A DNA stretch of 49,264 bases from an uncultured Clostridia bacterium (GTDB lineage Bacteria > Bacillota > Clostridia > Christensenellales > Borkfalkiaceae): contig CANRDY010000058.1 of NCBI GenBank assembly GCA_947629515.1, positions 1 to 49,264 on the forward strand, in the 5' to 3' direction. Shown one piece after another: positions 28,951-48,620 of the stretch (positions are counted from its first letter, which is position 1; each line of letters starts with the position of its first letter). The notes below the pieces were generated by a model, which was not told the origin of the DNA, searched no databases, and saw nothing but the letters and a program-made list of their open reading frames with translations. Both the position numbers and the translations under genes were made by a program.

Positions 28951-28997
28951 CCGTCAAAAAACGGCTCCCGCCCGCGGCAAAAAGCCGCGGGCGGGAG
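28951..28997 (-). terminator. Terminator region after the protease-Opp operon
   Basis: CTCCCGCCCGCGGC and GCCGCGGGCGGGAG form a 14-bp stem with a 5-base loop (28965-28997). In the minus-strand transcript it is followed by CCGTTTTTTGACGG, itself a 4-bp mini-hairpin whose loop is the T-run (28951-28964). It lies about 50 bases after the last gene of the operon. The T-run starts 3 bases after the stem, slightly unusual for an intrinsic terminator. Confidence 0.7.
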
Positions 28998-29047: not shown

Positions 29048-29302
29048 TCAATTGAGCCACAGCCAAACGACGAGAAAGGCGATTGAGACCGAGATCAGAA
29101 TGGCGAATAAAAAGGGCAACGTAGCCGCGAACGCGCCGCGGATCATCGCGCGCTTTTCTTTGCGGGTGGGCTTTTCGGCTTTAAGGCTTTCGCGGTTCTT
29201 GCGCACTTCCTCGGGCTCGTACCACGGCATGCCCTCCACGTTCATGTTGGCTATCGTCCGCCCGTCGTCGTAGTCCTCGGGCTTATTTCTTTTTTTCTTC
29301 AT
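29048..29302 (-). CDS. Small single-span membrane protein, last gene of the protease-Opp operon
   Basis: An 84-residue protein that I do not recognise. Residues 1-55 are hydrophilic and highly charged (MKKKRNKPEDYDDGR, and KAEKPTRKEKRA), followed by one strong C-terminal span (about 57-83) ending VVWLWLN. This gives a tail-anchored topology with the charged part in the cytoplasm. Its ATG lies inside the last codons of oppF in another frame, overlapping by 20 bases, with no clear Shine-Dalgarno site, so translation probably depends on that of oppF. Position in the operon suggests an accessory of the Opp complex; this is inference. Confidence 0.7.
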   Translation of the reverse strand: MKKKRNKPEDYDDGRTIANMNVEGMPWYEPEEVRKNRESLKAEKPTRKEKRAMIRGAFAATLPFLFAILISVSIAFLVVWLWLN

Positions 29303-31136
29303 GTTCGAGAGCGGCTTGTTTGATTTTTTCGCGGTCGAGGTATCCGCCGCTGTAATCCTCTTCCTCTTCGACTTCCTGCGAATACAGGTGGCACGCTACC
29401 TTGTGCCCGCCGCCGTAGTCCTTGAACACGGGCGTCACCTTTGCGCATATGTCCATACACTGCGAACAGCGCGTGTGGAACTTACAGCCCTGCGGGGGAT
29501 TGGCGGGGCTGGGTATGTCTCCGCCTAAAATTATACGGTTCATCGTGGCGTGAGGATCGGGCATGGGGACTGCCGAGAGCAACGCCTTGGTGTAGGGGTG
29601 CATGGGGTTCGAAAAGAGATCCTCTTTCGAACCGAACTCAACGAGGTTGCCCAAATACATAACGCCTACGTCGTCGGATATGTGCTGAACGACCGAAAGA
29701 TCGTGCGAGATGAACAGATACGTAAGGTTGAGTTCGTTCTGCAACTTCCTCAAAAGGTTTATTATCTGCGCCTGAACCGACACGTCGAGAGCCGATACGG
29801 GCTCGTCGCAGACTATGAACTCGGGGTTGTACGCAAGCGCGCGGGCTATGCACACACGCTGTCTCTGTCCGCCCGAAAATTCGTGGGGGTAGCGGTCGTA
29901 ATGGTAATCCTGCAAGCCGCAACGGCGCATTATGTCGAGCACGTATTCCTTTCTTTTGACCGCGTCGGGAATGAGCTTGTGGACTATTATGCCCTCTTCT
30001 ATTATCTCGCCGACCGACATGCGCGAGTCGAGCGAGGAATAGGGATCCTGAAAAATTATCTGAAGGTCGCGGCGCAGACGGCGCATTTCCTTATATTTGA
30101 GCCTTGCGAGGTCGACGCCCTTTTCGGCTAACTTCTCGCAGTTGTCGAACTGCTCCGAGGCGTTTTCGGCTTTAAGCTCTTCTATCTTTTGAACGTACCC
30201 GTCGCGCGCTTCCGTGGCGGTTTTCAAATCTTCTTCCGCCGTTTCGAGGGCGGCTTTCGCCTTTGTGGTTTTGCTCTCCGCCGAGGAACTTCCGCCGTCG
30301 GTGCGCTTTTCCTGCGCGGATTTCGCCTTGTCAAACCTGCGTTGGGCGGCGTCGCGCTTGTTGGTGAGTTTGAGAACGGTCTTGTCGGCTTCGAGCTTTT
30401 TCAAGATCAACGGTTCGAACTTTGCATAAGCCTCGTCGTCGAGAACTATAAACCCGCCGAGCACGCTGACTATGTTCACAAAGTGCATTTTGGCAAGCCT
30501 TGCGGCGTTGCCCGCCGCGCTCTCCGCGCGCGCACGCTCCTTTTTGAGTTTGCTCCTTTGGGTGTAAAGGGTCTTTACGGGCGCGTAGATGAGCTTTGCC
30601 TTTTCAGCCTGCTCCTTGCTCGCCGTTTTGAGAGCCTTTTTGAAGTTTGCAAGCTCGATATTTTCAAAGGGCGAACCGAGTTCCGAAAGTTGGGCTTTTG
30701 CCTCCTCTTCGGCTTTTTCGGTCTCCGCCTTTACCTGCTCGTAGCGCGCGGTGACTTCCGAAAGTTTGTCCGCGAATATCCTTGCTTTGACTTCCTCGTC
30801 GAATTGGCTCTTTTTGAGGCGGGCGGCGTTTTTGACGGTACGGGTGAAATATTTGGGCGCAACGCCCGCGTAAGTTCTGCCGTTATAAAAGGTGTTGCCC
30901 GAAGTCTGCTCGTGCAGTTGCAGAACCGTTCTGCCGAGGGTGGTCTTGCCGCAGCCCGATTCGCCGACTATGCCGAGCGTTTTGCCCTTGCGTATCGAAA
31001 GCGAAACCCCGTCGACAGCCTTCAATATCTTCGAAGGTCTGCCCAAAAGATCCTTGTCGAGCACGAAATATTTGCACAGATCGTCGACTTTAAGGATTAT
31101 TTCGTCGTCGGAAAGTTGTGAATTTTTGTTATCCAT
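29283..31136 (-). CDS. oppF: Oligopeptide ABC transporter ATPase OppF with a large coiled-coil insertion
   Basis: One of the two ATPases of the Opp peptide importer. From the chosen start (617 residues): Walker A GESGCGKT with Lys64, Q-loop IIFQDP with Gln363, signature FSGGQR at 420-425, Walker B IVCDEP with Asp444-Glu445, and the H-loop in ISHDLS. OppF is normally about 320 residues. Here about 255 residues, highly charged and helical (many Lys, Glu, Ala), are inserted at about 87-345 between the strand after Walker A and the Q-loop. The C-terminal oligopeptide domain has CX5CX2CX3C and ACHLY. Start choice: MDNKNSQ, with GGAG 6 bases upstream and an 8-base overlap with oppD; an in-frame ATG 5 codons earlier lacks a site. 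Unit: oppA-B-C-D-F. Confidence 0.93.
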   Translation of the reverse strand: MDNKNSQLSDDEIILKVDDLCKYFVLDKDLLGRPSKILKAVDGVSLSIRKGKTLGIVGESGCGKTTLGRTVLQLHEQTSGNTFYNGRTYAGVAPKYFTRTVKNAARLKKSQFDEEVKARIFADKLSEVTARYEQVKAETEKAEEEAKAQLSELGSPFENIELANFKKALKTASKEQAEKAKLIYAPVKTLYTQRSKLKKERARAESAAGNAARLAKMHFVNIVSVLGGFIVLDDEAYAKFEPLILKKLEADKTVLKLTNKRDAAQRRFDKAKSAQEKRTDGGSSSAESKTTKAKAALETAEEDLKTATEARDGYVQKIEELKAENASEQFDNCEKLAEKGVDLARLKYKEMRRLRRDLQIIFQDPYSSLDSRMSVGEIIEEGIIVHKLIPDAVKRKEYVLDIMRRCGLQDYHYDRYPHEFSGGQRQRVCIARALAYNPEFIVCDEPVSALDVSVQAQIINLLRKLQNELNLTYLFISHDLSVVQHISDDVGVMYLGNLVEFGSKEDLFSNPMHPYTKALLSAVPMPDPHATMNRIILGGDIPSPANPPQGCKFHTRCSQCMDICAKVTPVFKDYGGGHKVACHLYSQEVEEEEDYSGGYLDREKIKQAALEHEEKKK

Positions 31137-32514
31137 TTTCTTCTCCGTCATACAGATGGCACGCTACGAAGTGCGTTTCGCTCACTTGTTTGAGTGCGGG
31201 ATAATCGCCCGAGCACGCCTTTGTGCACTTGCCGCATCTGTCCTTAAAGTAACAGTAGTCGGGCATATCTATGGGGTTGGGCACGTTGCCGGGTATGTTG
31301 TAAAGCTGGTCGGTGTTCTTGTTTATGACGGGCTTCGACTTCTGCAAGCCCACGGTGTAGGGGTGAAGGGGGTTGTCGAAAATATCGTAGACCGTGCCCT
31401 TTTCTATGACCCTGCCCGCGTACATTACCACCACGTAGTCCGCCATGGACGCTATAACGCCCAGATCGTGCGTGATGAGCATTATGGAACCATCGACCTT
31501 TTCCTTTATCTCGCGCAGAAGTTCGAGTATCTGCGCCTGTATCGTGACGTCGAGCGCGGTCGTAGGCTCGTCGGCTATTATGAGTTTGGGGTTGCAGGCG
31601 AGCGCCATTGCTATCATTACCCTCTGCCTCATTCCGCCCGAAAGCTCGTGCGGGTAGCGCGTGTATATGTTGTCGGGCATGGCTATGCCGACCATTTTGA
31701 GCATTTCTATGGAACGCTCTTTCGCGCCCGCCCTGTCTACCCCGGGCGTGTGCAACAACACGACCTCGTCAAGCTGGTTGCCTATCGTGAACACGGGGTT
31801 CAAGGAAGTCATCGGCTCCTGAAATATCATCGATATCTCTTTACCGCGTATCTTGCGCATTTCGCCGAGCGGCATTTTGGCTATATCGTACACCTTGTCT
31901 TCCATCTCGTACACGGGGAAGCCGTTTTTGTCCTTAGCCTGTACCTTTTCGAGAACGGGGTTGCCCTCTTTGTCGAGCACGGGTTTGCCCTTTTTGTCGA
32001 GCCTGGGCGCGGTCTTTACAACGCGCTCCCCGTCCTTTTCTTCGTACTCGTATACGGGAATGTACTTGCCGTCGGCGCCCTTTACGTAGTCGCGGGTCTT
32101 AAAGCGTATGCTTCCCCCCACTATCTGACCTATCGGTCCCTGCACAAGCTGCATTACGGAGAGCGAAGTGACGCTCTTGCCGCAACCCGATTCGCCCACC
32201 ACGCCGACTACCGAACGCTTGGGTATGTCGAAAGTAACGCCGTCGACGGCTTTCGAAACGCCCGCGTCGGTGAAAAAGTAGGTCTGCAAGCCGTCGATCT
32301 CGAGAATGTTGTCCTCGTCGCGCATATGCGCGAGATATTCGCTCTCGTTGACGAACTTGCGCTTTTTCTTCTTTTCGTAAGCGCGGGTGATGCGCGCGTT
32401 GTCGCGCGAGATCTTGCGGGCTTCCTTACCCGAGATAAAGTGCTCGTCGTTCTTATGGGTCAAGTCATCGATCTTCGACTTTATTTTTTGTATAAACGTC
32501 TTTTTTTCGCTCAT
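31129..32514 (-). CDS. oppD: Oligopeptide ABC transporter ATPase OppD with an insertion
   Basis: 461 residues, against about 335-350 usually. After a basic N-terminal extension of about 65 residues come Walker A GESGCGKS (Lys113), Q-loop MIFQEP (Gln232), signature LSGGMRQR (291-298), Walker B IIADEP (Asp315-Glu316) and the H-loop LITHDLG. About 65-70 extra residues lie between Walker A and the Q-loop (about 140-207), the same place as the OppF insertion. They consist of short repeats with DK-x-G-x-PV and PVYE motifs. The C-terminal domain carries CX5CX2CX3C (Cys421, 427, 430, 434) and ACHLY; some Opp/Dpp ATPases carry an iron-sulfur cluster here. The ATG follows the oppC stop by one base. Confidence 0.94.
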   Translation of the reverse strand: MSEKKTFIQKIKSKIDDLTHKNDEHFISGKEARKISRDNARITRAYEKKKKRKFVNESEYLAHMRDEDNILEIDGLQTYFFTDAGVSKAVDGVTFDIPKRSVVGVVGESGCGKSVTSLSVMQLVQGPIGQIVGGSIRFKTRDYVKGADGKYIPVYEYEEKDGERVVKTAPRLDKKGKPVLDKEGNPVLEKVQAKDKNGFPVYEMEDKVYDIAKMPLGEMRKIRGKEISMIFQEPMTSLNPVFTIGNQLDEVVLLHTPGVDRAGAKERSIEMLKMVGIAMPDNIYTRYPHELSGGMRQRVMIAMALACNPKLIIADEPTTALDVTIQAQILELLREIKEKVDGSIMLITHDLGVIASMADYVVVMYAGRVIEKGTVYDIFDNPLHPYTVGLQKSKPVINKNTDQLYNIPGNVPNPIDMPDYCYFKDRCGKCTKACSGDYPALKQVSETHFVACHLYDGEENG

Positions 32515-32515
32515 T

Positions 32516-33559
32516 TTATTTCTTCATCTTAGGGTCGAATGCGTCCCTTAAACCGTCGCCGAGAAAGTTGAAACCGAGAACCGACAAAATTATGGTTACG
32601 CCCGACGGCGCCCATACCCACGGAGCGGTCGACAGTATCTCGGTATCCTTTGCAAGGTTGACCATCTTGCCCCAGCTCGCCTGAGGATAGGGAACGCCGA
32701 GGTTTAAGTAAGAGAGCGTGGCTTCAAACAGGATTATGTTGCCGAGCGACAGCGTCATCGAAACTATCAGCTGCGGGATAATGTTGGGGATAAGGTGCTT
32801 GAACACCTTGCGCGGCGTGGAGAATCCTCCCGCCTCCGCCGCTACGATAAATTCCTGTTCGCGCAAGTATAGTATCTGCCCTCGGACGAGCCGCGCGATA
32901 CCCGTCCAGCTGAGGATAGTCAACGCGCCCAACAGCACGTAAATTCTGAACTGTTCGTCCAGCTTGTACTCGTCGAGCAACGCGCTTATTATAAGCATTA
33001 TCGGCAGTTGGGGAATACAGTTGATGATGTCGATTATTCGCATCATCGCCATGTCGAAGCCTCCGCCCAAATAGCCCGCAAGTCCGCCGATTATCATTCC
33101 CAAAAGGGTGTTGACGAACACGACCATAAGGCTTAAAGTGAGCGAGATCCTGCCGCCGTACATAAGCCTTGTGAGCACGTCCATGCCCTCTTTGTCGCAA
33201 CCGAGAACGTGCACTCTGCCGTCGCTGCTGCGCGAGAAGGGCGCGGCGAGCTTAGCCCAGTCGGTCCTGAACTCTTTGACGTATATTACGTCCTCCGACA
33301 CGTCGTATTCCGAATAGGTAACGGGCGCGAGGTTGCGGTCGACTTCGGTTTCGCCCCAGCCCGTGAACACGGGTCCGACGAAGCTGAAAAGGAACATCAG
33401 AATTATTATAACAAGTCCCACTATCGACAGCTTCGAACGGAAAAAGCGTTTGACGACGAGCTTCCACGGAGCAATTACCCTTACCTTGTCGGAAAGGGAT
33501 TGCTGTTCGTCGCTTTCGACGCTCTCGTTTTCGGGCGCAACGTTTGTGTTGTCTTCCAT
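32516..33559 (-). CDS. oppC: Oligopeptide ABC transporter permease OppC
   Basis: A 347-residue inner-membrane permease with the OppC N-terminal domain. A hydrophilic N-tail (about 1-30) precedes the first span (about 44-66), then an external loop and five more spans. The EAA loop that contacts the ATPases is visible as FIVAAEAGGFSTPRKVFKHL. The C-terminus LNFLGDGLRDAFDPKMKK is canonical. Length is slightly above average because of the external loop (about 68-135). The start has AAGGAG 5 bases upstream; oppB ends 10 bases before it. Confidence 0.95.
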   Translation of the reverse strand: MEDNTNVAPENESVESDEQQSLSDKVRVIAPWKLVVKRFFRSKLSIVGLVIIILMFLFSFVGPVFTGWGETEVDRNLAPVTYSEYDVSEDVIYVKEFRTDWAKLAAPFSRSSDGRVHVLGCDKEGMDVLTRLMYGGRISLTLSLMVVFVNTLLGMIIGGLAGYLGGGFDMAMMRIIDIINCIPQLPIMLIISALLDEYKLDEQFRIYVLLGALTILSWTGIARLVRGQILYLREQEFIVAAEAGGFSTPRKVFKHLIPNIIPQLIVSMTLSLGNIILFEATLSYLNLGVPYPQASWGKMVNLAKDTEILSTAPWVWAPSGVTIILSVLGFNFLGDGLRDAFDPKMKK

Positions 33560-33569
33560 CGTAGCTCCT

Positions 33570-34562
33570 TTATTTTTCCAGCTTGACCCGAGGGTCTACA
33601 AGCATATAGGCTATATCCGTCAAAAACGTACCTATAACCGTCAGAATTGCCAAGAACATCATATAGCCCATTATGAAGGGCACGTCGCCGTTTTGCATCG
33701 CCTGATAGGAAATACGACCTATGCCGTCGAACGCAAACACCTCTTCGAGGATCATCATTCCGCCGAAAAGTCCCGGCAACAGCCCCGCCATCATGGTGAC
33801 GAGGGGTATCATTGTGTTGCGGAAAACATGCTTATATACGACCGTCCGCTCCGAAAGTCCCTTTGCCCTTGCCGTCCTTATGTAGTCGGCGTTGAGCACT
33901 TCGAGTGTGTTGGTACGCGTGTGGCGCATTATGCCGCCGAGGGAGATGAGCACTATCGTTATCATGGGTAAGATCATGTGATAGAGCATATCCCCCACCC
34001 GCGCAAAGCCCATGAGGTTTGCGTCGGACAGCGTTCCCTGCCCGGGGAACCAGCCCAAGTCGGTCGCAAAGATCTTAATGAGTATGGTTCCCACGAAGAA
34101 CGAGGGCAACGAAATGCCGATTACGGTTATAACGGTTATGGTGTAGTCGTATACGCTGTATTGGCTTGTTGCGGCTTTTACGCCGAGAGGCACTGCAATT
34201 ATATATTCGAGCACGAACGCCACTATCGCAACCGCAAAGGACTGCCACATGTAACGCTGTATAGCGTCGGTCACGGGTTCGTTATAGCAGAACGACATGC
34301 CGAGGTTGCCCTGAATGGCGTTGCCGAGCCAATTGAAGTAGCCCGAAATTATGCCGCCGAACGAGTTGTCGTCAAGCCCGTAAATGGCTTTAAGCTCCTG
34401 TATCTGCTCGGGCGTTATTTCGGTACCGTTGCCCATGCCCGCCACCATTCTGTCGATGTAGTCGACGGGCAGCAAACGCATAAGGATATACAATATCAAA
34501 GAGACCACGAGCAAAGATAAAATTGCGTAAAAGATCCTCTTTACAAGATACTTTATTGTCAT
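33570..34562 (-). CDS. oppB: Oligopeptide ABC transporter permease OppB
   Basis: A 330-residue permease paired with OppC. The N-terminus MTIKYLVKRIFYAILSLLVV is the first span; six spans in total. The EAA loop reads YIRTARAKGLSERTVVYKHV, and the end DIAYMLVDPRVKLEK is canonical for OppB. The start has AAGGA 8 bases upstream and follows the oppA stop by 35 bases. No insertion is visible here, unlike OppA, OppD and OppF. Confidence 0.95.
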   Translation of the reverse strand: MTIKYLVKRIFYAILSLLVVSLILYILMRLLPVDYIDRMVAGMGNGTEITPEQIQELKAIYGLDDNSFGGIISGYFNWLGNAIQGNLGMSFCYNEPVTDAIQRYMWQSFAVAIVAFVLEYIIAVPLGVKAATSQYSVYDYTITVITVIGISLPSFFVGTILIKIFATDLGWFPGQGTLSDANLMGFARVGDMLYHMILPMITIVLISLGGIMRHTRTNTLEVLNADYIRTARAKGLSERTVVYKHVFRNTMIPLVTMMAGLLPGLFGGMMILEEVFAFDGIGRISYQAMQNGDVPFIMGYMMFLAILTVIGTFLTDIAYMLVDPRVKLEK

Positions 34563-34597
34563 TTGGATATTCCTTGTTTATTTGGGATATTACCCGC

Positions 34598-37171
34598 TTA
34601 CTTGGAAATGTTGAGTTCTACCTGCCAGATGTTCGAAAGAGGGCTTCTGAACGCCGTTACGTCCTCGAGGTGAAGCGACTCGTTCTTTATTACCGAAGTG
34701 TTCCATACGAAGAGGTTATCCCTTTGATAGAGAGGGAACTCCACGTAGAGATCCATTACATAGTCGAGAGCGGTGCTGTACATTTCCTTACGCGCTTCTT
34801 TGTCGTCTATTTCACGCGCCTGATCGATTATCCTCGAAAGTTTTTCGATTATATCGTATTCCTGATAGTAATACGAGGTGTCGTTCAATATGGCGTTATA
34901 GCCCCAGTTGAGCACCGAAGTAGCCTTGCTGTCCATGTGGTAGACCTGATACATATCGGGGTCGATAGTCGACGACCACGCCGCCGCCCACACTTCGAGC
35001 GTGCCCTGCTGCAACTTTCTGAGCGCGTTCGAATCCTTGGTAACGGTTATTTCGAAGCCGCACTCGTTGAGGATCTCCGCCGCAAGACGAAGGGTCTGCG
35101 CCGCGGGGTGATCCTCGGTGTCGCCCGCTATGGTGAAGGTGTATTTAAGGGTGTCGTCCGCCGCATTCTGCAAAGTGCCGTTTGAATTGGGATTGGTGAA
35201 GCCCGCTGCCTGTACGAGCGGTTTGACCGCCGCTATTGCCGCAGTTTTGAACTCGTCGGAGGTGGCGAACTGGGTGTCGCCCCAGAATACGCTCTTGCAG
35301 CCCGTGGGATAAGCCCAGCTCTCTATGGACATGGGACGGTAAATGGGGCTTGCCGCGCCGCCGTAGTACGCTATGGCAAGATCGGGGTTGAACGCCGTCA
35401 TTATTGCTTTACGGATATTGATATCCTTAACGTATCTGGCGTTTACGCCTATATAGCCGTAGCCGAGGTTGGAAACCTGTTCGAAATCTATCCCCTCGCC
35501 GTTGGTTTTCATATTCTTCACTCTGTTGATATTGTCCTGCGTGGCGTTGGGATCGGCATAGTCTATTTCTTTGGTTTTACCCGTTACCATATCGAACTTC
35601 TGGTTGGACGAAATGGTCTTGTACTGAATGTACTTGATCTTGGGCTGACCCAGAACGAAATCGTCGTTGCGGACGAAGTTGACTATGCTGTTGTTGTAGA
35701 AATCGGCAAGCGCGTTCGAAGCGTTGGGATCGGAGACGTTCGCCTTGTAAGGACCCGCGCCGACGGGCACGAGCTTTTGCCTTACGCTGTTCATGAAGTC
35801 CGCGCTGGCGTACTCTACGCCGAAGTCGGCACATTCCGCACTGTAAACGTCCGCCGCCATTGCCTTTTCGACAAGTTCGGGGGTGGAATAATAGTGCAGA
35901 GGCGCAACTTCGAAGCTGAAGTTATAGATAGCCTTGGGGTCAACGCCGTCGATGACTATTTTGAGAACGTCAAGCTCTTTGCCGAGATTTATGGGCGTAC
36001 CCGTCTGCGTGGGTATACTGCTCATCTTTTCTACGGTTATACCCGAAACGTTCTTGTAGGTTATGCCCGTATCGGCAAAGTATTTGCCCATAAGGTCGGA
36101 GGCGATATACTCTTCAATAGTTTGAGATGTCGCATATTTATAGCCGAACAGTTTCCTCATGCTGTCCTTGAACCCGGTAGGCGAACTGGTACTATAAAAG
36201 TTATTGAAAATTTCGTTTATAATATCATCTTTGTTATGACTCTTGCTGTCCCAGCCATTATATTGAATTGGTTCGTAATAATGACTGCCGTCAGGACGAG
36301 ACTTTCTTTGAACTTCAATCTCACTATACATCTGCAAAAAGATCTGCCAAGGCTCGGTGAGTCCCATTTCCTTGTAGCTTTCGGAGTCTACAGAACCTTC
36401 CGCCGAAGCCCAGTCGGTGTTCATCTCTTCCTTGAAATAACTCTTTGACTGCTCTATATATTCCATATATGTTTTCGAGCGCAGTCCCTCATCAAATTCA
36501 TATGAATTATTAAGATCGGACATAGGGTTGCCCGCGTCCTCGTCAGCCCACTCGACTATGTTCTGCATAATCGTTCTTGCATACTGCGTGAACAGGTTGT
36601 CGATCTGCTCCTGCTGGTTTTCGTCTTCCGTCTGCGTTCTGTATCTCTGCAAGCCCTTTATCTTGGTGGAATACATGGTGGAAGAACCCGAATACGCTCT
36701 GTCGAGATACATATACAGGTTGAAGAGCACGTCGTGTATAGTGAGAGGCACGCCGTCGCTGAACTTGATGTTGTCCTTTATGGCGAAGTAGTAAGTGGTG
36801 TAGTAGTTGTCGTAGTCGTTGCCGTTTACTTCCTTGCTGCCCGTGGTAACGCTCGAATAATGCGAGACGACCGTGGGCTGTGCGCCGTTGGCAACGGCTT
36901 CGGGCGAATCGTCGGCGTTCGCAACGATATTGCCGTCTTTATCGGTCGCAAGCATGGAAATCTGGGTCTGCGCCACTACCGAGCTGTCCGCGCCCGACGT
37001 TGAGAAGAAGGGGTTGAAAACGCCGTCGAGTGCGTCCGTGGAAATTCTCAATGGCGTATCTTCGGTGATCGCGTCGCCCGAGCATGCGGGCAAGCACGTT
37101 ACTGCCGTTACGCAGGCGAGCACGGTGCACGCCGCCAACGCCAATTTCTTTTTAATGTTCTTTTTGCGCAT
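34598..37171 (-). CDS. oppA: Oligopeptide-binding lipoprotein OppA, enlarged
   Basis: The extracytoplasmic solute-binding protein (SBP family 5) that delivers peptides to OppBC. The signal peptide ends in LPAC with the lipid Cys at residue 30. The family signature IKFSDGVPLTIHDVLFNLYM spans about 134-153 and GAGPYK is at 471-476. It has 857 residues, against about 520-600 usually. The excess is mostly one segment at about 165-395, rich in Asn, Gln, Tyr and acidic residues (RYRTQTEDENQQEQIDNLF, DGSHYYEPIQYNGWDSKSH), placed between the signature and the ligand-binding hinge. The start has AGGAG 6 bases upstream. A 39-base gap with no hairpin or promoter separates it from the lipoprotein gene before it, so it appears to share the protease operon. 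Confidence 0.93.
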   Translation of the reverse strand: MRKKNIKKKLALAACTVLACVTAVTCLPACSGDAITEDTPLRISTDALDGVFNPFFSTSGADSSVVAQTQISMLATDKDGNIVANADDSPEAVANGAQPTVVSHYSSVTTGSKEVNGNDYDNYYTTYYFAIKDNIKFSDGVPLTIHDVLFNLYMYLDRAYSGSSTMYSTKIKGLQRYRTQTEDENQQEQIDNLFTQYARTIMQNIVEWADEDAGNPMSDLNNSYEFDEGLRSKTYMEYIEQSKSYFKEEMNTDWASAEGSVDSESYKEMGLTEPWQIFLQMYSEIEVQRKSRPDGSHYYEPIQYNGWDSKSHNKDDIINEIFNNFYSTSSPTGFKDSMRKLFGYKYATSQTIEEYIASDLMGKYFADTGITYKNVSGITVEKMSSIPTQTGTPINLGKELDVLKIVIDGVDPKAIYNFSFEVAPLHYYSTPELVEKAMAADVYSAECADFGVEYASADFMNSVRQKLVPVGAGPYKANVSDPNASNALADFYNNSIVNFVRNDDFVLGQPKIKYIQYKTISSNQKFDMVTGKTKEIDYADPNATQDNINRVKNMKTNGEGIDFEQVSNLGYGYIGVNARYVKDINIRKAIMTAFNPDLAIAYYGGAASPIYRPMSIESWAYPTGCKSVFWGDTQFATSDEFKTAAIAAVKPLVQAAGFTNPNSNGTLQNAADDTLKYTFTIAGDTEDHPAAQTLRLAAEILNECGFEITVTKDSNALRKLQQGTLEVWAAAWSSTIDPDMYQVYHMDSKATSVLNWGYNAILNDTSYYYQEYDIIEKLSRIIDQAREIDDKEARKEMYSTALDYVMDLYVEFPLYQRDNLFVWNTSVIKNESLHLEDVTAFRSPLSNIWQVELNISK

Positions 37172-37210
37172 ATATATCTCCTGTAATTTTTATTTATTTC
37201 AAACCATATT

Positions 37211-38434
37211 TCAGGTCGTTTGTTGTGACAGAGAACAGCTCTCGCACGTTACGCCCGAAAGCGTCTCTTTGTTGCCGCACACGATATTTGCGAAAGGTCC
37301 GCCAAGCTCGCTCTTGTTGTATAACACATTACCTATAAATATACCTCTGTCTCCGCTACTTCCCAAATTGGGCATCGAGAACGTGATATTTACATTTCTA
37401 AGGGTAACGTTTTCGCAAGGAGCCGATCCGTCTGCCTGACCCGCGAGCACGCCCATGTTTACCTTTGAAGGGTTGCCCCTGTGGGTGACGGTTATGGTTA
37501 CGTTCTCGAAGGTTATATTACTTATCTTTGCGTTAGCCCCCAGACGGCGGAACAGTCCGTAGTTCTGCTGTCCCACGCCCGTATCGGAGTAGCTTACGGC
37601 AAAGTTCTTTACGGTGCGGTTATTGCCGACTATCGTGCCCGCGTAGTTGGTTATTACGTTGACCGACGTGTCCTCTTCGGCAAAGTCTATGTCCGCCGTA
37701 AGGTACATGCTTGTGCCGCCGCGCATGGCGTTGCGGAATTCGGTGGTGGAAGATACGAGCGTGTACGTGCCCTCTATCCTCTTAACGTATACCCTTTCGA
37801 CCTCCGCGCCCGTTTGAAGTTTATGCGTGTAGGGGAACTCCACGGGCTGTGTGCACGCGCTGTCGTAGTAGTATTCTCTTAAATTGGTGTAGCCCGATAC
37901 GTCTTTCAACGCCGAGTCGAGCTTGGTTTTTTCGACGGAGTTCGAGCCAGTGTCCACGTATATCTTGGAGTTGGGAGTGTCGTCTACGTTGTAGATATCG
38001 AGTCTGAACCTCAATTGCCATACGGCAAACAGCGTCAGATCGCCGCTTACCCTGTCTTGTTCGAAGTTCCAGAACACGGTGTTGCCGTTTACATCCTTTT
38101 TGTAGTTGACGACGCCGCCCTCCTCTTCGCCCTCGGCAAAACCTACGAGGGTGTAGTCCTCTTTTGAGGGGATAAGATTCTGCTTTACAAGACCTTCGTA
38201 TGAGATGAGCGCGTCGGGCTTGACGTAGAGCTTAGCCACGTCCGAAGGGTTGTTGCCGTTATTGGTGATCGCGCCGCCCAGATAGTCGAGGGTGACTATG
38301 TTCGAATACCCTCTGTCTATCACCTTGTCGGGCGAAAGCGTAAAGTTTCCGCTGCACGCCGTGAGCGTGCATACGCCCGCAACGACCGCCAGCAATGCGA
38401 TCAGAATATTCCTTTTGAGCCTGTTATGCCTCAT
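37211..38434 (-). CDS. Lipoprotein with InlB-like repeats and a C-terminal beta-helix-like region
   Basis: A 407-residue predicted surface lipoprotein of no named family. The signal peptide ends in LTAC with Cys27. Two InlB-type regions follow (about 45-140, with VGFAEGEE ... LTLFAVWQL, and about 142-225). The last 180 residues (ADIDFAEEDTSVNVITNYAG, then NYGLFRRLGANAKISNITFE) repeat G-N/x-F/I-N-V strands as in GLUG or right-handed beta-helix proteins. The ATG lies inside the end of the upstream LRR gene, an 11-base overlap, with GAGGA just upstream. It lies between the LRR lipoprotein and oppA, so a substrate-capture role is conceivable but unproven. No catalytic residues are identifiable. 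Confidence 0.85.
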   Translation of the reverse strand: MRHNRLKRNILIALLAVVAGVCTLTACSGNFTLSPDKVIDRGYSNIVTLDYLGGAITNNGNNPSDVAKLYVKPDALISYEGLVKQNLIPSKEDYTLVGFAEGEEEGGVVNYKKDVNGNTVFWNFEQDRVSGDLTLFAVWQLRFRLDIYNVDDTPNSKIYVDTGSNSVEKTKLDSALKDVSGYTNLREYYYDSACTQPVEFPYTHKLQTGAEVERVYVKRIEGTYTLVSSTTEFRNAMRGGTSMYLTADIDFAEEDTSVNVITNYAGTIVGNNRTVKNFAVSYSDTGVGQQNYGLFRRLGANAKISNITFENVTITVTHRGNPSKVNMGVLAGQADGSAPCENVTLRNVNITFSMPNLGSSGDRGIFIGNVLYNKSELGGPFANIVCGNKETLSGVTCESCSLSQQTT

Positions 38435-41400: not shown

Positions 41401-41558
41401 TAGGAAGCCTCGGGTATCTGAGTTCCACCTCTTGAATCGAAGGTCAACTTATAGGTGGTTTCGCCCGCGCAACCCGCGCACGAACCCGCGCACGCCGCAA
41501 ATATGCCCGCCGTGCCGGCTATGGCTATCAACAGGGAAATTACAAAACGCTTTTTCAT
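38424..41558 (-). CDS. BspA-type LRR lipoprotein in the protease-Opp operon
   Basis: A 1044-residue surface lipoprotein. The signal peptide ends in FAAC with Cys23, followed by two more Cys (CAGSCAGCAGE), an unusual cluster just after the lipid anchor. Three InlB-type repeats lie at about 34-106, 109-173 and 178-245, then BspA/LRR_5 repeats from about 247 to 1015 with the usual L-x-x-I-x-I-P ... I-G-x-x-A-F pattern and two DGCLY-type inserts. The tail SWSEMKEKVKSVEEYDEA is charged. The ATG overlaps the protease stop as ATGA, and GGAG lies about 9 bases upstream. This is translationally linked to the protease, which carries the same repeat type, so joint action at the surface is likely (inference). 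Confidence 0.92.
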   Translation of the reverse strand: MKKRFVISLLIAIAGTAGIFAACAGSCAGCAGETTYKLTFDSRGGTQIPEASYAAGQTVSRPDDPEKDYYTFDNWYSDEECTKPAFTAEYTFVMPEGDATLYANWLGLTTSRIDFDSDGGTAVDSIVEFSGKPVSEPQAPTKEGYVFGGWTLNGVPFGFDRMPEESITLKAQWNNDSNYAYMTYVINEQTYAVVPVKKGESVTKFEPDLGDGILLTDWFSDSRYNQRYTFGRPAAADTTLYAQSYSDGLQISAGSVTGYTGGSKVIIPKFYEGQQVTSIARDAFLNNDKVVEVILPDSVKTIGANAFSECNYLFEINLGEVSRIDASAFYSCNRLRNIGSLENVSVVSESVFSGCSDLRSVKFSPRLQSIGDYAFSACSRLTSVDLGSTVTAIGNYAFSNSGITAFNIPASVRTMGECVLDDCKSLSAVTSASSAFAVEDGNLYKVSGETRSLYRYVSKNEEFTLPEGVSSVENGAFSSSAVKTLEFGAGVTLKQGALKGADKLVNLTLSAFPQSGGIAYYFGEAAGGNGTGYVPATLKTVTLTGEVTSLPAYAFYGCTGLEEVEGIDNVVSIGDYAFAFTAIENIVLGANFTTFAGDNPAHVFYGDTALTAILIDEASGCRYKSYDGCLYSSDFKNLVCVPAGKTAIMFAEGVQKIVTDAFAYSSVKIVNVPQTVTQIESGAFRFSAMTELTVSFIGGSAGANNYMPYIFGASVTTSDGEDDLNDNHFISTTLTKITLRNDITAVPDFAFAYITNLKEVETTSGSNITKIGKYAYAATAVEDYNFDGITEIAEGAFISCSSLTEVIIPGSVQTIGDAAFAYCRYISKVELLDGVTAIGEGAFLASRSIYVGTSGSSYRYNSSLREVIIPASVTSIGGSAFAYAGMTYSTALGGVYEMNEDFTLTFDSENIDTLGDSAFYHSALKTINLGSKLTSIGARAFEACPQLETVTLGSGEAMLEGTLTIGAMSFADCEKLKAVVIYSETVPTVNTKIEDDEAEYRNFVRGSYDCLIYVPADSVESYKQAESWSEMKEKVKSVEEYDEA

Positions 41559-44500
41559 GACTTTCTGCTCCCCCTTGCCGCGAACGCCGCTATTGCGATC
41601 GCCGCAACAACCGAAGCTATCGCCGCAAGTATTCCGCCCGCCGAAGTATTGTTTTGTACGTTTTCGATTTCGACTATCGAAGCGACGACTTCGTTGCCTC
41701 CGTCGACCGCCGAGGTATTCTGCGAAAGTTCGGGGTGAGCGGCGTTATACAACTCGGTCACCCTTGCGACGGCGGCGTTGAGTTTGGTGACGAAATCCGC
41801 GGGGATAAACGCCATCTGGTCGCTGTCGAGCAGATTGTAAAGTCTGCGGTAAGAGAGCACTGCGGTGTAGTCGTCGACCGTGAGCGCGTTTAGATCTATC
41901 GCCTCGATATTCTCGTAAAGGGCTATCGTGCTCTGGCTCTCCTGCACGTCGGTGCGCGTTGCCACGTCGCCGACATATTGCTTCCACAGGCGGCTGTCGT
42001 AGCCCTGCCCGTTTGCGGGGACCGAAATGGCGACGCCCGCCGTCTCCTCTTCGGAATAGTCCTTTTTGAAGTTGTTATAGGTGTATTGGTTGAGCACGTA
42101 ATCGCTCTCGAGTACGGGCGCGGTCACGCAGTTCATTGTTATGCTTGCAAGCGCGTCCGCGTTGTAGAACGCCCCCGCGCCTATGCTCAAAAGAGTTGTG
42201 GGAAGGGTGACCGAAGTTACGTTCGGGTTATCCGCAACGGCGTACGCCTCGATGCGAACCGTTCTGTCGAGAACCGTGAGAGCCGTAACGTTTGCCGCGG
42301 AGGGCAGACAGAACAGCTCGAATTTGCCGTTAGAAAGAGTGCGGTAGATCGCGCCGTCGCCCTCGTGCACGAAGTACGCTCCGCCCTCGGCTATCGTGAC
42401 CGTTGCAAGAGCGGTAGCTCCGTTGAACGCGCGGGGCGCAAGGCTTTCGACCGCGGGAAGGGCAAGGCTCGAAATATCCGTACCCTTGAACGCATACGCC
42501 TGTATGCTCTTTACCGCGGGTATCGTAAGCGAGGCGAGGCTCGCCGCGTTTTCGAACGCGTGTTCTCCCACGTTTTCGGCTTTTGCGAAGTTCGCCGCGG
42601 TAAGTTTGCTGTTTTCGAACGCGTACGCGCCGATCTCCTTTACCTCTCCGAGGTTCGCCTCGGTGAATATCGCTCCCGCAAAGGCGTGGTCGCCTATCGT
42701 CGTCAGCTTGGGCGCGGTTATAGCCGCAAGTTTCGAGGGCGTCCCTCTGCCTACCGCAAACGCATACGCGCCCACTTCGGTAAGCTCGTCCGCCTTTATC
42801 GCGGCGAGCGCGGTGTTGGAGAACGCGTAGTCGCCCACCTTTGTTACCGCTCCGAAGTCGTCGGCTTCGGGACTTGCGGCAGAATAGATATGCTCTATCC
42901 TGCTGTCTGCGAACGCGCGCGCGCCTATTTCGACAACGCTTGCGGGAAGTACTATCGAGGTAATTCCCGAGTCCGCGAACGCATAGGGTGCGATCGCCGT
43001 TATTCCCTCGCAGAGGGTGACGGACGTAAGTTTTTCGCATCCGCCGAACACTCCCTCGCCGAGAGCAGTTATATTGCTTCCCGTAAGGTCTGCCGAAGCA
43101 ACTTCCGAATCCGCAAAGGCGTAAGCTCCGAGCGAGGTGAAGCCTCCGAGGCTCGTTGCCGTCACCGCCGCCAGATCGGTTCCCGCAAAGGTATAAGCGG
43201 GCAACTCTTTGAGCGCGGAGTTATTGACAAAGCCCGCGACGTGTTTGCAGAACCCGAACGCGCCCGTGCCGAGGTAGGTTACGCTTGCGGGGATAGTTAT
43301 GGTGTAATCCTGCGTGCCGTCGTCGGTGTACGCAAAGGCGTAATCGCCGATATATTGGACGTTTGCGGGGATAGTTACCTGCGCAAGCGCAGTCTGCGAG
43401 AAGGCGTTGCTGCCTATCGAAATTATGTTGTTCGTTCCGTTCAGCGTATTTATTCTGGAATATACGAACGCGCCGTCGCCTATCTCGCGGACGTTGTTGA
43501 AGTTGACCGTCCTCAACGCCTGATTATAGCTGAACGCGTTTTTGCCTATCTTCAAAACGTCTGTCGGAACGGTGAACGTGCCGTTGTTTGCATACTGCTT
43601 TGCAAAGGGTGCGACAACGAGCGTTTTGCCCGACTTATCGTAGAGTATGCCGTCCCGCGCCTGCATATATCTTGCGCCCGCAACGGCTTTGAACGAAGTC
43701 AGCCTTACGCAGTTGATGAACGCGCCCGTGCCCACGTCGTTGAGGTTGGTGTACGCCGAAGCCGTGACGTTGGTGAGCTGTGAATCCTGCGCAAACGCCC
43801 GCTCGCCTATTTTGGTAAGCCCGTCGGGAAGTTTGAAGTCGGTCAACGACGAGCAGTAAGCAAACGTGCGATCGCCTATCGCGCCCACCGTGCCGTTGAA
43901 CTTGACCGTTCTCAGAGCCGAGCAGTCGTAGAACGCGTAGTCGCCCAACGCCGTCAGATCGGAATTTATAACTACGCTTTTGAGCGACGTGCAGTTTGCA
44001 AACGCGTAGTCGCCGAGGGCAGAGCCGTTGAACTCGACGTTGCGCAACGCAACGCACTCTATAAACGCGTTTTCGCCTATCTGCGTGTACTTGCCCGTTA
44101 TTATGTTTTCGAGGGAATAGCATGCGGCGAACGCCAGCGCGCCCATATACTTAACGCCCGTTATGTCGAGCGTTTTAAGCCCCGAGCACATGCAGAACGT
44201 GCGGCTTCCCACAAACGACACGTGCGAAAGATCGAGCGTTTCGAGAGATGGACAGTTGTAGAACGCCAGATCGTTTATTGTGGTGACATGGTTTAAATTT
44301 ATGGTCGAGAGCTTGGGGTTCCACGCAAAGGCGTAAATGCCTATGGTTGCGCAACTTTCGGGAAGCTGTACTTCTTCGAGGTTGTCGCAGCCATAGAACG
44401 CCGCTTCGTTTATCGTTTCGACGCCCTCGGGTATTATTACCTTTTTAATATATTCGTTGCCGAAGAACGCGCTGCGGGAAATGTAGAGCACGCCGAGGTC

Positions 44501-47500
44501 GTCGGGTATCTCCACAACGCCGTTCTCGTCGCCCCTGCCGTTGTACTTTTCGAGATAGCGGCTTTCGACGGAGAACTCCTCTTTGAGCCTTATCACGCAG
44601 GAGCTGTTTATGAGCGAGTTCTTGACGCGCACCGTAACGCTTGCCGAACCGAAGTAGTCGAGAACGGTCACGGTCGCCTTGCTGCTGTCGGTCGGGTCGA
44701 CGTCGATCCTTATCTTAGCGGTGTTGCTCGAACTCCACGTGAGTTCGTAGTTGTTGTTGGTCTTGTTATAGGGTTCTACCGTGGCGGATATCTGCCGCGA
44801 TTCGCCCACCACCATTTCCATTATCGTGTCGGAAAGGGTTATTCCCGTAATGGAAATTTCGCCCTTGTTCCTGTCTCTTACGGTTACCGTCTTTGTGGCT
44901 TCGATGCGCTTTTGCACGCCCTCGTCGTAATCGAACACTTCGGCATAGGCGGTGATCGTCACCGTGCCCGCAGAAACGCCCGTTACAATGCCGTCCTTTA
45001 CGATGGCTTTGGTCTCGTCCGAGCTTTCCCACTTAACGCCGTCGGTCAAAACGCCCCTCGGCTCTATATTGAGTTCGCCCGTTAAGTTGACCTGACCGTT
45101 GATGTCGATGGTCTTACCGTCGTTGTTTCTGAACGAAAGTCCCGTTACTTCGGAAATATAGCTGTTGAGACAGATGAACTGCTGAACTCTGTTACGGGCG
45201 TAGTCGACCGCCTCGATGTAGAGGTTGCCGTCGTTTTCCATTATCTGGTTCCAATAGGGAGTTATGTCGAGTTTGTACTTGTTTACAGTGCCGCGCACAA
45301 CTTCGGGCGTGGGGATCATTCCCGATACGAGCGCGACCGAATCTACGGGCGTGTCGCCGTCCATTTCCCTGCAAGTGCTGATGAAGAAGCCCTGCAGATA
45401 GTGGTTATCGTAAAAGGCGAGTTCGAGGTATCTGCGGGTTATGTTGCCGTTGGCGTCCATGTCGTACTTTATCGTCGTCTCGTCGCCGACAAGCACGGGC
45501 GATTCGTTATCGATATAGAACGTGAACGAGAACTTGTTGTTATTGTTCTGTCTTTCGCCGTATTCGCCCTCTAAGAAACATTCGAGTTCGAGGGTGTACT
45601 TTGCGTTGTTGGGAAGTTTAAGTTCGTTGACGTTAAACCCGACGTCGACCCACGCGCCCCTCTCCTGTAAGCCGCTCGACTTGCCCGCGTTGTACGAAGT
45701 GCGTTCGAACACAAGCTCGCCCGTGAATGCGTCTTTTATCTTTATTTCAATGCGCTTTGCGCACCTTATAAGTCCGAGAGAAATGCCGTCGAGCTTGTAA
45801 AGCCCGTCTATGTTCTGCGTTAGCGAAGCCTTGTCCTCGAGAATGGGAACGTCGTCGTAGCCGTCCGCAAGGATATAGCCCGTCTGTCCCATGCCCCACA
45901 TCGCTTCCTGCGGGTCGCCGTTTACGCTCTGCGAGAGGAACTCGCCCATGGGGAGCGATCCGTATACAAGGGGTTTGAGCTTATCCTCTTCGAGTATGGA
46001 GCTGTCGACTTCCTGCGCGCCCACTTCGTACGCCGATACGTCGAGAATGGGAGCCGCAGACCAATCCCCGTAGAACGCGAGGAAGGGAATGTTGAGGTCG
46101 ATGCCGCCCGCGTCCTGCGCGAGGAGTTTGACAAAGCCCTCAACGAACATGCCGTTGGCGAAGTTGCCGTTGAGGTACGCCTTGTCATCGGCGGAGAGGG
46201 TCACCGTTACCGTGACTTTTGCGTCGGAATACCCGGGCACTATAAGGTTGTCGCCCGAAAGCACCGACTTAACGCCGCTGACCGTTTCCACATTGCGCTC
46301 TATGCCGCAGTCGTTGAAGATGTAAGGGGTCTCGGCTACGGTTATCTCGTCAGAGGACATCGACTCGGTCATAACGACGGGTGAAATTTTATAGGTCAAA
46401 GGTTTGTTGGAAGTGTTCGAAACGTTGAACGTAAGCTCGTAAACGCCCTTCTTTTCAACATCGTCGCCCAAAGAGAGTTTGGTCTTGTTCTGCCCTTCCA
46501 CATAAATATATCCGCGCGAGGTGACCGCCTTGCCTATGTCGGCAAGTCCCGCGCCCTGCTTTCTGGGCGAATAGGGGCTGCCCACCTCGTTATATGCGAT
46601 AGTCGCCGTGCTCATAGCAAGGCGATAGGTCATATCGGTAACTTCCTGCGGGGTGAAGTCGGGATAGCTCTCCTTTACGTACTGCCTTATGAGAATTATC
46701 GCGCCCGCCATGTTGGGACAAGCCATCGAAGTTCCGCTCATGGTATCGTAACCGCCGCGGACCGCCGAGTATATCTCGCCGCCGTGCGCGGTTATGTCGG
46801 GTTTGAGTTCGAGGTCGGGAAGGGTGCCCCAGCTCGAGAACTCAGACATGAAAGGACCCGCCTGATTCTTTTTGGAGAGGTATATCGTGCCCGTTCCCCT
46901 GCTCTCGAAGTGCTTGCCTATGTCCATAGTGACCGAGCACGCGGGCAGTTTGGAACGACCTATCGACATGCTTATTACGCCCGAGACGTTGTTGTAGATT
47001 ATACAGCCGACCGCCCCCGCTTCTTCCGCGGCGAGCACTTTGTCTTCAAAGGTCGAAACGCCGCGCTTTATTACGGCTATCTTGCCCCTTACGTCGAGTC
47101 CGCTGTAATTGGAATACTCGCCCGTGCCGGGGACTACCACGTAGTCGAATGTCGCTTCCTCGCGAGAGCCGAGCATCTCTTCGACGAAGTTCTTGTTGTC
47201 GCCGTTGGCTTTCGCACTCTCTTTGAAGTACACGTCGAGCTCGCCGTCGGCAACGGCGTAATATGACTTGACGCCGCTTATCGAAGCGACCGCCATTGCG
47301 GCGGGATAGCTTGCGGGCGAACCTACCGTGCCCGAGTCGGGATTGGTGGCGAGGTTGGTATTTCCCCAAAGGGAATTATACGCCGAAGAATAGTCGTTCG
47401 AAGCCGCGCATATGAGGCAGATACCCGAAGCGCGAATGGAATCGTAAATGAGGTTTACCTCTTCCTTGTCGCCCTCGCGCGCAAAGCCGCAGGAACTGCC

Positions 47501-48556
47501 GAGCGACATGTTTATGGCGTCGACGCCGAGGAGCACGCAGTCCGAAAGGGCGGCGAGTATGTCGGGCGTTTCCGCGCCCTGATCCTCGTTGCCAAACACC
47601 TTCATTATGGCGAGCTGTGCGTTTACGGCAACGCCCGTTATAACATCGTCGTCGCCGCCTATTATGCCCGCGACGTGGGTGCCGTGGTCGTTCACGGGGA
47701 ATACGTCGTGATCTTTGTCGGCGTAGTCGTATGCGTAGGGAACTTTATAGCTGATATAGACGTCGTCCGTTTCGAGTTCCTCGTTCTGATTGGCGAGGTT
47801 GAGGCGGGCGGCTTCGAGATTGCCCACCTCGTTGGTAACGTCGTCGTAAGTGAGCGCGAGGTCGTCGGTGTCGAGGTTGGGGAAGTTCTCCATGGCGAAC
47901 GCCGAGTGGGAATAATCAAGCCCCGTGTCGAGTATGGCTATTACCGTTCCCTGTCCCGTATAGCTCGTAACGTTGCCCGAGTTGTAAATACCCGTGTCTT
48001 CCCACACGTTTACGTTGTTTTCGGTAACTTCGGGAAGGGCGTAGGTATCGGAGATCATTACCGATTTGAAAACCCCGCTCTCCTCTATCTTCTCCACGTC
48101 GCCGTATTTAACGAGCATCGACAAGCCGTTGAATATCGCCGTGTAGTGATATTTTGTATCGTAAACCATTCCGCCAAGCTCTTTCAACGCCTGCTGCTGG
48201 CTGTCCAAAAGCTCTTCGGAATACATCGCGCCGTAGCTCGTCGCGGCAAATTCGCCCGCCGTCATGCCGAGGCGTTGGGCTTCGGTCATAAGACTTCTGT
48301 CGTCTACCGTGCCTATTATCCACACCTTTTCGCCGTCGTCGGGACGGTTGACCGAATCGGAATAGTCCAGCTCGGACGACGACGATACGGGAGTCGCGCC
48401 CGACGCGTCGGATACCGACACCGAGCTTTGGGCGGACGCCGAAACGGCAGGTTTGTAATCGGCGAGGGTAAGCCCGCCGATGAGCGCGCCGCACATCAAA
48501 AGGCTTAACGCCGCCTGTAAGGATCTACGCAATTTTTTTCTGGTTGAAATTAACAC
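41555..48556 (-). CDS. Subtilisin-like (S8) surface protease with PA, BIG2 and LRR domains
   Basis: A 2333-residue secreted protease, first gene of its operon. The signal peptide covers about 1-43. The S8 triad is visible: Asp210 in AILDTGLDY, His291 in NDHGTHVAG and Ser610 in SGTSMACPN, with oxyanion Asn387 in CAASN. A PA domain is inserted at about 425-560 and an Fn3-like C5a-peptidase-type domain at about 690-830. Two BIG2-like domains follow at about 1138-1227 and 1235-1313, then BspA-type LRR from about 1345 to 2130. The C-terminus is a hydrophobic span and basic tail (AAIAIAAFAARGSRKS) without LPXTG. The start is GTG, with GGGTGAT 5 bases upstream. The catalytic half resembles lactocepin/C5a-peptidase enzymes that cut host or dietary proteins; the LRR half is larger than the catalytic domain. 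Confidence 0.93.
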   Translation of the reverse strand: MLISTRKKLRRSLQAALSLLMCGALIGGLTLADYKPAVSASAQSSVSVSDASGATPVSSSSELDYSDSVNRPDDGEKVWIIGTVDDRSLMTEAQRLGMTAGEFAATSYGAMYSEELLDSQQQALKELGGMVYDTKYHYTAIFNGLSMLVKYGDVEKIEESGVFKSVMISDTYALPEVTENNVNVWEDTGIYNSGNVTSYTGQGTVIAILDTGLDYSHSAFAMENFPNLDTDDLALTYDDVTNEVGNLEAARLNLANQNEELETDDVYISYKVPYAYDYADKDHDVFPVNDHGTHVAGIIGGDDDVITGVAVNAQLAIMKVFGNEDQGAETPDILAALSDCVLLGVDAINMSLGSSCGFAREGDKEEVNLIYDSIRASGICLICAASNDYSSAYNSLWGNTNLATNPDSGTVGSPASYPAAMAVASISGVKSYYAVADGELDVYFKESAKANGDNKNFVEEMLGSREEATFDYVVVPGTGEYSNYSGLDVRGKIAVIKRGVSTFEDKVLAAEEAGAVGCIIYNNVSGVISMSIGRSKLPACSVTMDIGKHFESRGTGTIYLSKKNQAGPFMSEFSSWGTLPDLELKPDITAHGGEIYSAVRGGYDTMSGTSMACPNMAGAIILIRQYVKESYPDFTPQEVTDMTYRLAMSTATIAYNEVGSPYSPRKQGAGLADIGKAVTSRGYIYVEGQNKTKLSLGDDVEKKGVYELTFNVSNTSNKPLTYKISPVVMTESMSSDEITVAETPYIFNDCGIERNVETVSGVKSVLSGDNLIVPGYSDAKVTVTVTLSADDKAYLNGNFANGMFVEGFVKLLAQDAGGIDLNIPFLAFYGDWSAAPILDVSAYEVGAQEVDSSILEEDKLKPLVYGSLPMGEFLSQSVNGDPQEAMWGMGQTGYILADGYDDVPILEDKASLTQNIDGLYKLDGISLGLIRCAKRIEIKIKDAFTGELVFERTSYNAGKSSGLQERGAWVDVGFNVNELKLPNNAKYTLELECFLEGEYGERQNNNNKFSFTFYIDNESPVLVGDETTIKYDMDANGNITRRYLELAFYDNHYLQGFFISTCREMDGDTPVDSVALVSGMIPTPEVVRGTVNKYKLDITPYWNQIMENDGNLYIEAVDYARNRVQQFICLNSYISEVTGLSFRNNDGKTIDINGQVNLTGELNIEPRGVLTDGVKWESSDETKAIVKDGIVTGVSAGTVTITAYAEVFDYDEGVQKRIEATKTVTVRDRNKGEISITGITLSDTIMEMVVGESRQISATVEPYNKTNNNYELTWSSSNTAKIRIDVDPTDSSKATVTVLDYFGSASVTVRVKNSLINSSCVIRLKEEFSVESRYLEKYNGRGDENGVVEIPDDLGVLYISRSAFFGNEYIKKVIIPEGVETINEAAFYGCDNLEEVQLPESCATIGIYAFAWNPKLSTINLNHVTTINDLAFYNCPSLETLDLSHVSFVGSRTFCMCSGLKTLDITGVKYMGALAFAACYSLENIITGKYTQIGENAFIECVALRNVEFNGSALGDYAFANCTSLKSVVINSDLTALGDYAFYDCSALRTVKFNGTVGAIGDRTFAYCSSLTDFKLPDGLTKIGERAFAQDSQLTNVTASAYTNLNDVGTGAFINCVRLTSFKAVAGARYMQARDGILYDKSGKTLVVAPFAKQYANNGTFTVPTDVLKIGKNAFSYNQALRTVNFNNVREIGDGAFVYSRINTLNGTNNIISIGSNAFSQTALAQVTIPANVQYIGDYAFAYTDDGTQDYTITIPASVTYLGTGAFGFCKHVAGFVNNSALKELPAYTFAGTDLAAVTATSLGGFTSLGAYAFADSEVASADLTGSNITALGEGVFGGCEKLTSVTLCEGITAIAPYAFADSGITSIVLPASVVEIGARAFADSRIEHIYSAASPEADDFGAVTKVGDYAFSNTALAAIKADELTEVGAYAFAVGRGTPSKLAAITAPKLTTIGDHAFAGAIFTEANLGEVKEIGAYAFENSKLTAANFAKAENVGEHAFENAASLASLTIPAVKSIQAYAFKGTDISSLALPAVESLAPRAFNGATALATVTIAEGGAYFVHEGDGAIYRTLSNGKFELFCLPSAANVTALTVLDRTVRIEAYAVADNPNVTSVTLPTTLLSIGAGAFYNADALASITMNCVTAPVLESDYVLNQYTYNNFKKDYSEEETAGVAISVPANGQGYDSRLWKQYVGDVATRTDVQESQSTIALYENIEAIDLNALTVDDYTAVLSYRRLYNLLDSDQMAFIPADFVTKLNAAVARVTELYNAAHPELSQNTSAVDGGNEVVASIVEIENVQNNTSAGGILAAIASVVAAIAIAAFAARGSRKS

Positions 48557-48578
48557 GTTTAATCACCCGTTTTCTATC

Positions 48579-48620
48579 TGTATCGGGAACGCAAAACGAA
48601 CGCCGATTTTTATCGATACA
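48579..48620 (-). promoter_or_regulatory. Short stem at the 5' end of the protease-Opp transcript
   Basis: TGTATCG (48579-48585) and CGATACA (48614-48620) can pair as a 7-bp stem enclosing 28 bases. Its outer end coincides with the predicted transcription start, so the mRNA may begin with a hairpin, as in the MoxR/VWA unit. It is a weaker structure and could be chance. Confidence 0.35.

Follow-up and report, generated by a model that had tools for sequence, protein, structure and literature searches.

A conserved gene cassette joining a predicted surface S8 protease and an Opp-type importer in Clostridia of the order Christensenellales

Introduction

When a large surface protease and an oligopeptide importer are encoded side by side, are they merely neighbours or do they work together, one cutting proteins outside the cell and the other taking up the pieces? 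The question is raised by a contig of an uncultured gut bacterium of the Clostridia (Christensenellales, Borkfalkiaceae; assembly GCA_947629515.1, contig CANRDY010000058.1), of which positions 1 to 49,264 are the stretch of DNA analysed here (the window). Nine open reading frames (ORFs) follow one another on its minus strand from 48556 to 29048 and encode, in order of transcription, a subtilase-type (S8) protease with leucine-rich repeats (LRR), an LRR lipoprotein, a 407-amino-acid (aa) lipoprotein, OppA, OppB, OppC, OppD, OppF and an 84-aa protein. An initial annotation had proposed this same-strand array at 29048-48556, where we confirm it, and had interpreted it as a complete system for the capture, cutting and import of proteins. 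A functional link between the protease and Opp is strongly supported by genome comparison because the two co-occur, lie next to each other, have concordant trees and, in some relatives, the protease is fused to the lipoprotein. We consider it fairly likely that these genes make up a cassette dedicated to foraging on extracellular protein, combining proteolysis with import.

Results

The protease and OppA occur together in related genomes and, when they share a contig, they are nearly always neighbours. Presence was scored at thresholds of 1e-30 (protease) and 1e-20 (OppA) in the genus sample and 1e-40 in the family and order samples; the three samples overlap in genomes and their counts are not additive. 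Among 61 genomes of the genus, 45 carry both genes, 14 carry neither, and the protease and OppA are each found alone once; all 41 pairs on one contig are adjacent and co-oriented (38 protease-first, three opp-first), the other four being on different contigs. The family sample (151 genomes) gives the same picture, with both genes in 74, neither in 73, the protease alone in one and OppA alone in three; 66 of the 67 pairs on one contig are adjacent and co-oriented (56 protease-first, 10 opp-first), the exception being 233 kb apart, and seven pairs lie on different contigs. At the level of the order (247 genomes; protease in 73, OppA in 71), 60 genomes have both, 13 the protease alone, 11 OppA alone and 163 neither, and adjacency with co-orientation holds for 54/54 pairs on one contig (49 protease-first, five opp-first), drawn from seven families (f1, f3, f15, f18, f22, f26, f29); in six genomes the two are on different contigs, and two of these (G301 and G362, family f10) have distant types. 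Conservation across the three samples rules out a chance stack of same-strand genes. Among 398 genomes sampled across the phylum, nine have a protease match at E 1e-60; they include the window's own, and the best of the others reaches 37-39% identity, so that at this threshold the protease type looks bound to the order. Where the cassette is missing from genomes of the genus, a more distant OppB is often present, and a cassette-like piece of OppB occurs in two of these 14 genomes (G003, G037).

The layout itself is also conserved. All 56 loci in the range L029-L089 with at least two cassette genes have them on the same strand (five further loci have the protease only). With gap lengths based on the longest ORFs, and thus on approximate start sites, gaps of at most 60 bases separate OppB from OppC in 36/36 cases, OppC from OppD in 35/35 and OppD from OppF in 34/34, the protease from the lipoprotein in 22 of 28 and the lipoprotein from OppA in 37 of 44. 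Among loci L090-L109, from six other families, the protease, a 407-aa-type lipoprotein and OppA are found in 20/20 and OppB in 19/20, L050-L109 having been picked mostly for linked hits; in one locus, L108, which stops past OppA, the protease and lipoprotein are about 7.6 kb apart.

The histories of the two genes match as well. For 55 pairs of protease and OppA, taken from the window, 51 linked loci and three unlinked genomes (protease residues 1-950), pairwise distances correlate with r 0.88, a value that none of 2000 permutations reached, and in 46 of the 55 the nearest neighbour by protease ranks within the top three by OppA. FastTree recovers an identical 10-member clade in the protease and OppA trees (support 1.0), with genomes from families f1, f18 and f29; the window's protease is 53-60% identical to those of the other nine clade members, and its identity to the nine proteases in the set that come from its own genus averages 47% (at most 50%). 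By these comparisons the cassette is inherited as a unit and, because this clade spans three families in both trees, it was probably transferred as a unit too: whole-cassette transfer between families is the simplest reading, a deep duplication with loss being a less simple possibility.

The initial annotation had proposed a synteny search of related genomes, and its expectation that protease and opp genes would be neighbours holds nearly always. Cases of the kind that it had named as refuting its reading do exist: protease and opp are 233 kb apart on one contig in G131, and on different contigs in G102 and G136, whose neighbourhoods were examined (other different-contig cases may be contig breaks). 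These three genomes nevertheless keep both genes and form one clade, in which protease and opp group together in both trees though unlinked; that the unlinked genes were both kept argues for a joint function beyond mere linkage.

Each half of the cassette also occurs without the other. The order sample has 11 genomes with OppA alone, of which nine were examined (L085, L113-L120; G244 and G326 were left out). Seven of these loci, L113-L119, from families f4, f10, f15, f16 and f21, are complete: an OppA of 800-909 aa comes first, the genes for B, C, D and F come next, and the small membrane protein is present in six of the seven; none of the seven has a match to the protease or to the 407-aa-type lipoprotein. 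A further locus, L120, on a contig cut at 8 kb, has the 407-aa-type lipoprotein with OppA and no protease. Since opp genes occur without the protease in other families, the protease looks added: the starting point was probably an opp operon that included the small protein, which lipoprotein and protease would have joined later. On the other side, 13 genomes of the order sample (11 of f10, two of f6) have a protease match without a cassette-type OppA. We examined eight distant protease loci, namely five of those 13 (L121, L123, L124, L125, L128), two from f10 genomes scored as having both genes, with a distant OppA elsewhere (L122, L127), and one (L126) from another genome belonging to the class. 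None of the eight has an opp set next to the protease, L123 and L127 being on short or cut contigs; at L122 a single ATPase, 33% identical to OppF, stands beside the distant protease.

Within the window, the nine genes are tightly packed. In order of transcription the junctions are -4 (S8/LRR), -11 (LRR/407-aa lipoprotein), +39, +35, +10, +1, -23 (OppD/OppF) and -20 bases, which agrees with the initial annotation, including its 8-base overlap if OppF starts at an in-frame ATG five codons on (-8 instead of -23). A sigma-70-type promoter match, TTGACA-17-TACAAT at 48656-48628 (minus strand, 11/12), precedes the protease gene and is the best in 30000-49264, and an intrinsic terminator hairpin at 28965..28997 (minus strand; 14-bp stem with 13 G-C pairs, T tail) closes the unit; the 61-nucleotide terminator region has a folding energy of -41.8 kcal/mol (z -7.06), equalled by 0/200 shuffles. 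The downstream gene has a promoter match of its own (11/12, 28799-28771). The earlier claim that such signals exist only at the two ends is thus upheld for the signals themselves and not for their exclusivity, as the minus strand within the unit also holds two 10/12 promoter matches (36350, 34375), eight 9/12 matches and five weak terminator-like sites with 5-bp stems (one at 29128). Counted on both strands, promoter-like sites number 20 against 13.0 +/- 3.8 in shuffles and terminator-like sites 26 against 26.0 expected. A promoter solely at the start is plausible, and the layout, the promoter match and the terminator fit a single transcription unit, whose genes would be co-transcribed.

The first gene (41555..48556, minus strand, GTG start) encodes a protease of 2333 aa with Pfam matches to S8, PA, Fn3-like, Big_2 and LRR_5 domains. 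The order of parts is a signal peptide, the S8 domain (PF00082, E 2.3e-42) with a PA insert (PF02225, E 9.2e-14), an Fn3-like domain (PF06280, fn3_5, E 5.7e-9), Big_2, a long BspA-type LRR_5 region, a C-terminal membrane helix and a basic tail. The motifs DTG, HGTH and GTSM, with the catalytic Asp, His and Ser, were located, and the protein is predicted to be proteolytically active. The helix-like stretch (residues 2303-2330), followed by the basic tail, would hold the protein in the membrane; no LPXTG sortase-type anchor is seen in the last 42 residues, where the helix and tail lie. A helix-like stretch is found within the last 130 residues of 50 of 57 full-length protease sequences, and seven of the 57 have a lipobox-like N-terminus (opp-first loci L054, L055, L056 and L082; protease-first loci L047, L057 and L081). 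One of these, L047, is recorded as an uncultured Anaeroplasma sp.; its lipobox-bearing protease is of the cassette type and adjoins a 407-aa-type lipoprotein, by binning error or transfer. Among named organisms, the closest relative found for the window's protease belongs to Candidatus Scatosoma pullistercoris, a member of the Clostridia (58% identity).

Of the solved structures, those of streptococcal C5a peptidase, chemokine protease C and cell envelope proteinases come nearest (E 1e-59 to 2e-67, the best being 2.1e-67); these enzymes share the S8 domain with its PA insert and the Fn3-like part. In place of the LPXTG-type tail of the streptococcal enzymes the window's protease has an LRR_5 region, and it misses the cut-off of the NCBIfam SGO_0316/SGO_0317 subfamily by far (270.5 against 1400 bits). 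This kinship raises a different reading, in which the enzyme, like C5a peptidase, has one specific surface or host protein as its target and Opp recycles the cell's own surface or wall peptides. The many LRR and InlB-type surface proteins adjoining the unit would suit it; the S8 group that holds C5a peptidase, however, also includes nutritional cell envelope proteinases, and the pairing of one Opp type with the protease across seven families and in two layouts suits feeding or recycling better than a single-target task. We regard target-specific cutting as unlikely, though the best of the alternatives.

The lipoproteins differ in how steadily they accompany the protease. The second gene (38424..41558, minus strand) encodes a 1044-aa lipoprotein with LRR_5 and List_Bact (InlB-type) repeats by Pfam. 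Each of the 10 members of the subtype clade that includes the window has an LRR lipoprotein after the protease, with a weaker LRR match found in only five of the other 45 tree entries (G119, G014, G029, G057 and G131, in the last on the opp side); it therefore marks this subtype and is ruled out as a core member. The 407-aa lipoprotein (37211..38434, minus strand) is the steadier cassette partner. It has no Pfam match at E 0.001 and consists of InlB-type repeats and a small beta-helix-like part; its structure model has a mean pLDDT (predicted local distance difference test score) of 82, and a fold search returned nothing at E 0.001 or better, with an InlB B-repeat at rank 36 (E 0.058). The lipobox Cys is invariant in 28/28 aligned sequences, 14 of which have a Flg_new match. 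In the genus sample 36 of 61 genomes matched it, mostly weakly, and some loci have no match to this lipoprotein type or to the small membrane protein.

The lipoprotein and the protease are also found as a single protein. In five of 21 named loci (L038-L042) a 407-aa-type lipoprotein domain forms the C-terminal part of the protease, and the protease-OppA gap of 12-47 bases leaves no space for a separate lipoprotein gene. Leading up to this domain are a helix where the protease normally ends, a charged linker and a second helix, with one more in L041; in the two-helix fusions both domains would thus be placed outside the membrane. According to the alignment, the fusions of L038 and L039 carry just the first half of the lipoprotein domain. 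As L038 and L039 are alike, and L041 and L042 are alike, there were fewer than five independent fusion events.

The importer set is complete and of the Opp/App type, with an SBP_bac_5 lipoprotein, two BPD_transp_1 permeases and two ABC_tran plus oligo_HPY ATPases, all encoded on the minus strand: OppA (34598..37171), OppB (33570..34562), OppC (32516..33559), OppD (31129..32514; Pfam and NCBIfam) and OppF (29283..31151). NCBIfam equivalog cut-offs for named Opp subunits are missed (Opp4C 307 against 350, Opp4A 73 against 650), the best matches of OppB and OppC being Opp4B and Opp4C, below their cut-offs. In the 622-aa OppF an insert of about 250 residues separates Walker A from the Q-loop; these motifs are 303 residues apart, against 48-67 in the 37 relatives in which both were found, and the insert looks coiled-coil by eye. 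The last gene (29048..29302) encodes the 84-aa protein, with one C-terminal membrane helix and no Pfam match at E 0.001; its relatives follow OppF in many loci, and these small one-helix proteins have a pattern of the DDG-T---M-NVEG--WY type. That it belongs to the protease is weakened as an idea, given that it follows OppF in six of the seven complete protease-free loci too.

OppA, an 857-aa lipoprotein, has Bacillus subtilis AppA (1XOC) as its best sequence match (E 8.5e-19) and, tied, as its best match by fold; 489 residues align, the deposited AppA chain having 520, and the window's protein carries several hundred extra residues. The idea that these evolved to dock the protease is weakened, as an OppA of 800-909 aa also occurs without a protease. 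The fold fits peptide, nickel-complex and opine binding proteins alike, with NikZ, MoaA and EppA at Z close to AppA, so that the importer might carry a non-peptide ligand (a metal chelate, an opine or a sugar), with the protease serving surface maturation only. The AppA match, the Opp4-type permeases and the consistent pairing with a protease speak against this, and we hold it to be improbable; OppA more likely has peptide cargo.

Searches of the source draft genome (1.70 Mb, 59 contigs, completeness 92.6%) with PF00082 and PF00496 each returned one protein, within the unit. That the S8 protease and OppA are the only such proteins found in the genome is suggestive and, in a draft, not final.

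Discussion

How would a foraging cassette of this kind work? The S8 protease would be exported and, anchored to the outside of the membrane through its C-terminal helix, would cut proteins outside the cell, its LRR region and the co-encoded lipoproteins probably helping to hold substrate or machinery at the surface; the lipoprotein OppA would then capture the released oligopeptides and OppBCDF import them. The functional protease-Opp link thus survives from the capture, cut and import scheme of the initial annotation, the LRR lipoprotein does not as a core part, and docking of substrate and hand-over from protease to OppA would be the scheme's inferred steps. A bolder version, which we put forward tentatively and hold to be possible rather than probable, is that gut Clostridia have here a protein utilisation cassette that moves horizontally, a counterpart to the glycan-utilisation loci of Bacteroidota; its membrane-held protease, beta-helix lipoprotein and OppA would be joined in one physical complex, from which peptides are channelled to the importer. 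That the protease instead trims or destroys a peptide signal, which Opp imports for sensing as Opp systems do in retrieving signalling peptides in other Gram-positives, is quite doubtful, as Pfam finds no regulator or small secreted peptide among the nine genes (the neighbour genes of relatives were mapped, not annotated, so an adjacent regulator is possible) and a signal would then take up the sole SBP_bac_5 protein that the genome was found to have.

A foraging cassette would follow the same logic as proteolysis and import in Lactococcus, where a surface S8 protease (PrtP/lactocepin) likewise serves with an Opp oligopeptide importer; what is new is an order-wide gene layout with extra surface lipoproteins. 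There, prtP is described as monocistronic, with opp transcribed together with pepO1 (PMC4712225), whereas here protease and opp stand in a single array that includes lipoproteins, and the protease carries an LRR region as well as a C-terminal membrane helix. Several searches confined to the open-access literature found no paper that combines all the features sought, which does not amount to absence from print.

How gut bacteria use protein has been mapped less than how they use glycans. The conserved pairing of protease and importer over seven families of the order gives a marker for lineages likely to forage on protein. It also suggests a role for proteins so far named only as LRR lipoproteins or as hypothetical ones, and with recombinant parts the capture of substrate and its hand-over can be tested directly.

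Genes next to the unit

The unit is followed by a giant gene (18901-28533), the one with its own promoter match, which encodes a lipoprotein-like LRR_5 protein of 3210 aa with 18 LRR_5 stretches. Beyond it, a second minus-strand array (2599-18792) encodes a MoxR-type AAA ATPase, a DUF58 protein, BatA/VWA and VWA proteins, and then an LRR_5 protein and an InlB-repeat protein.
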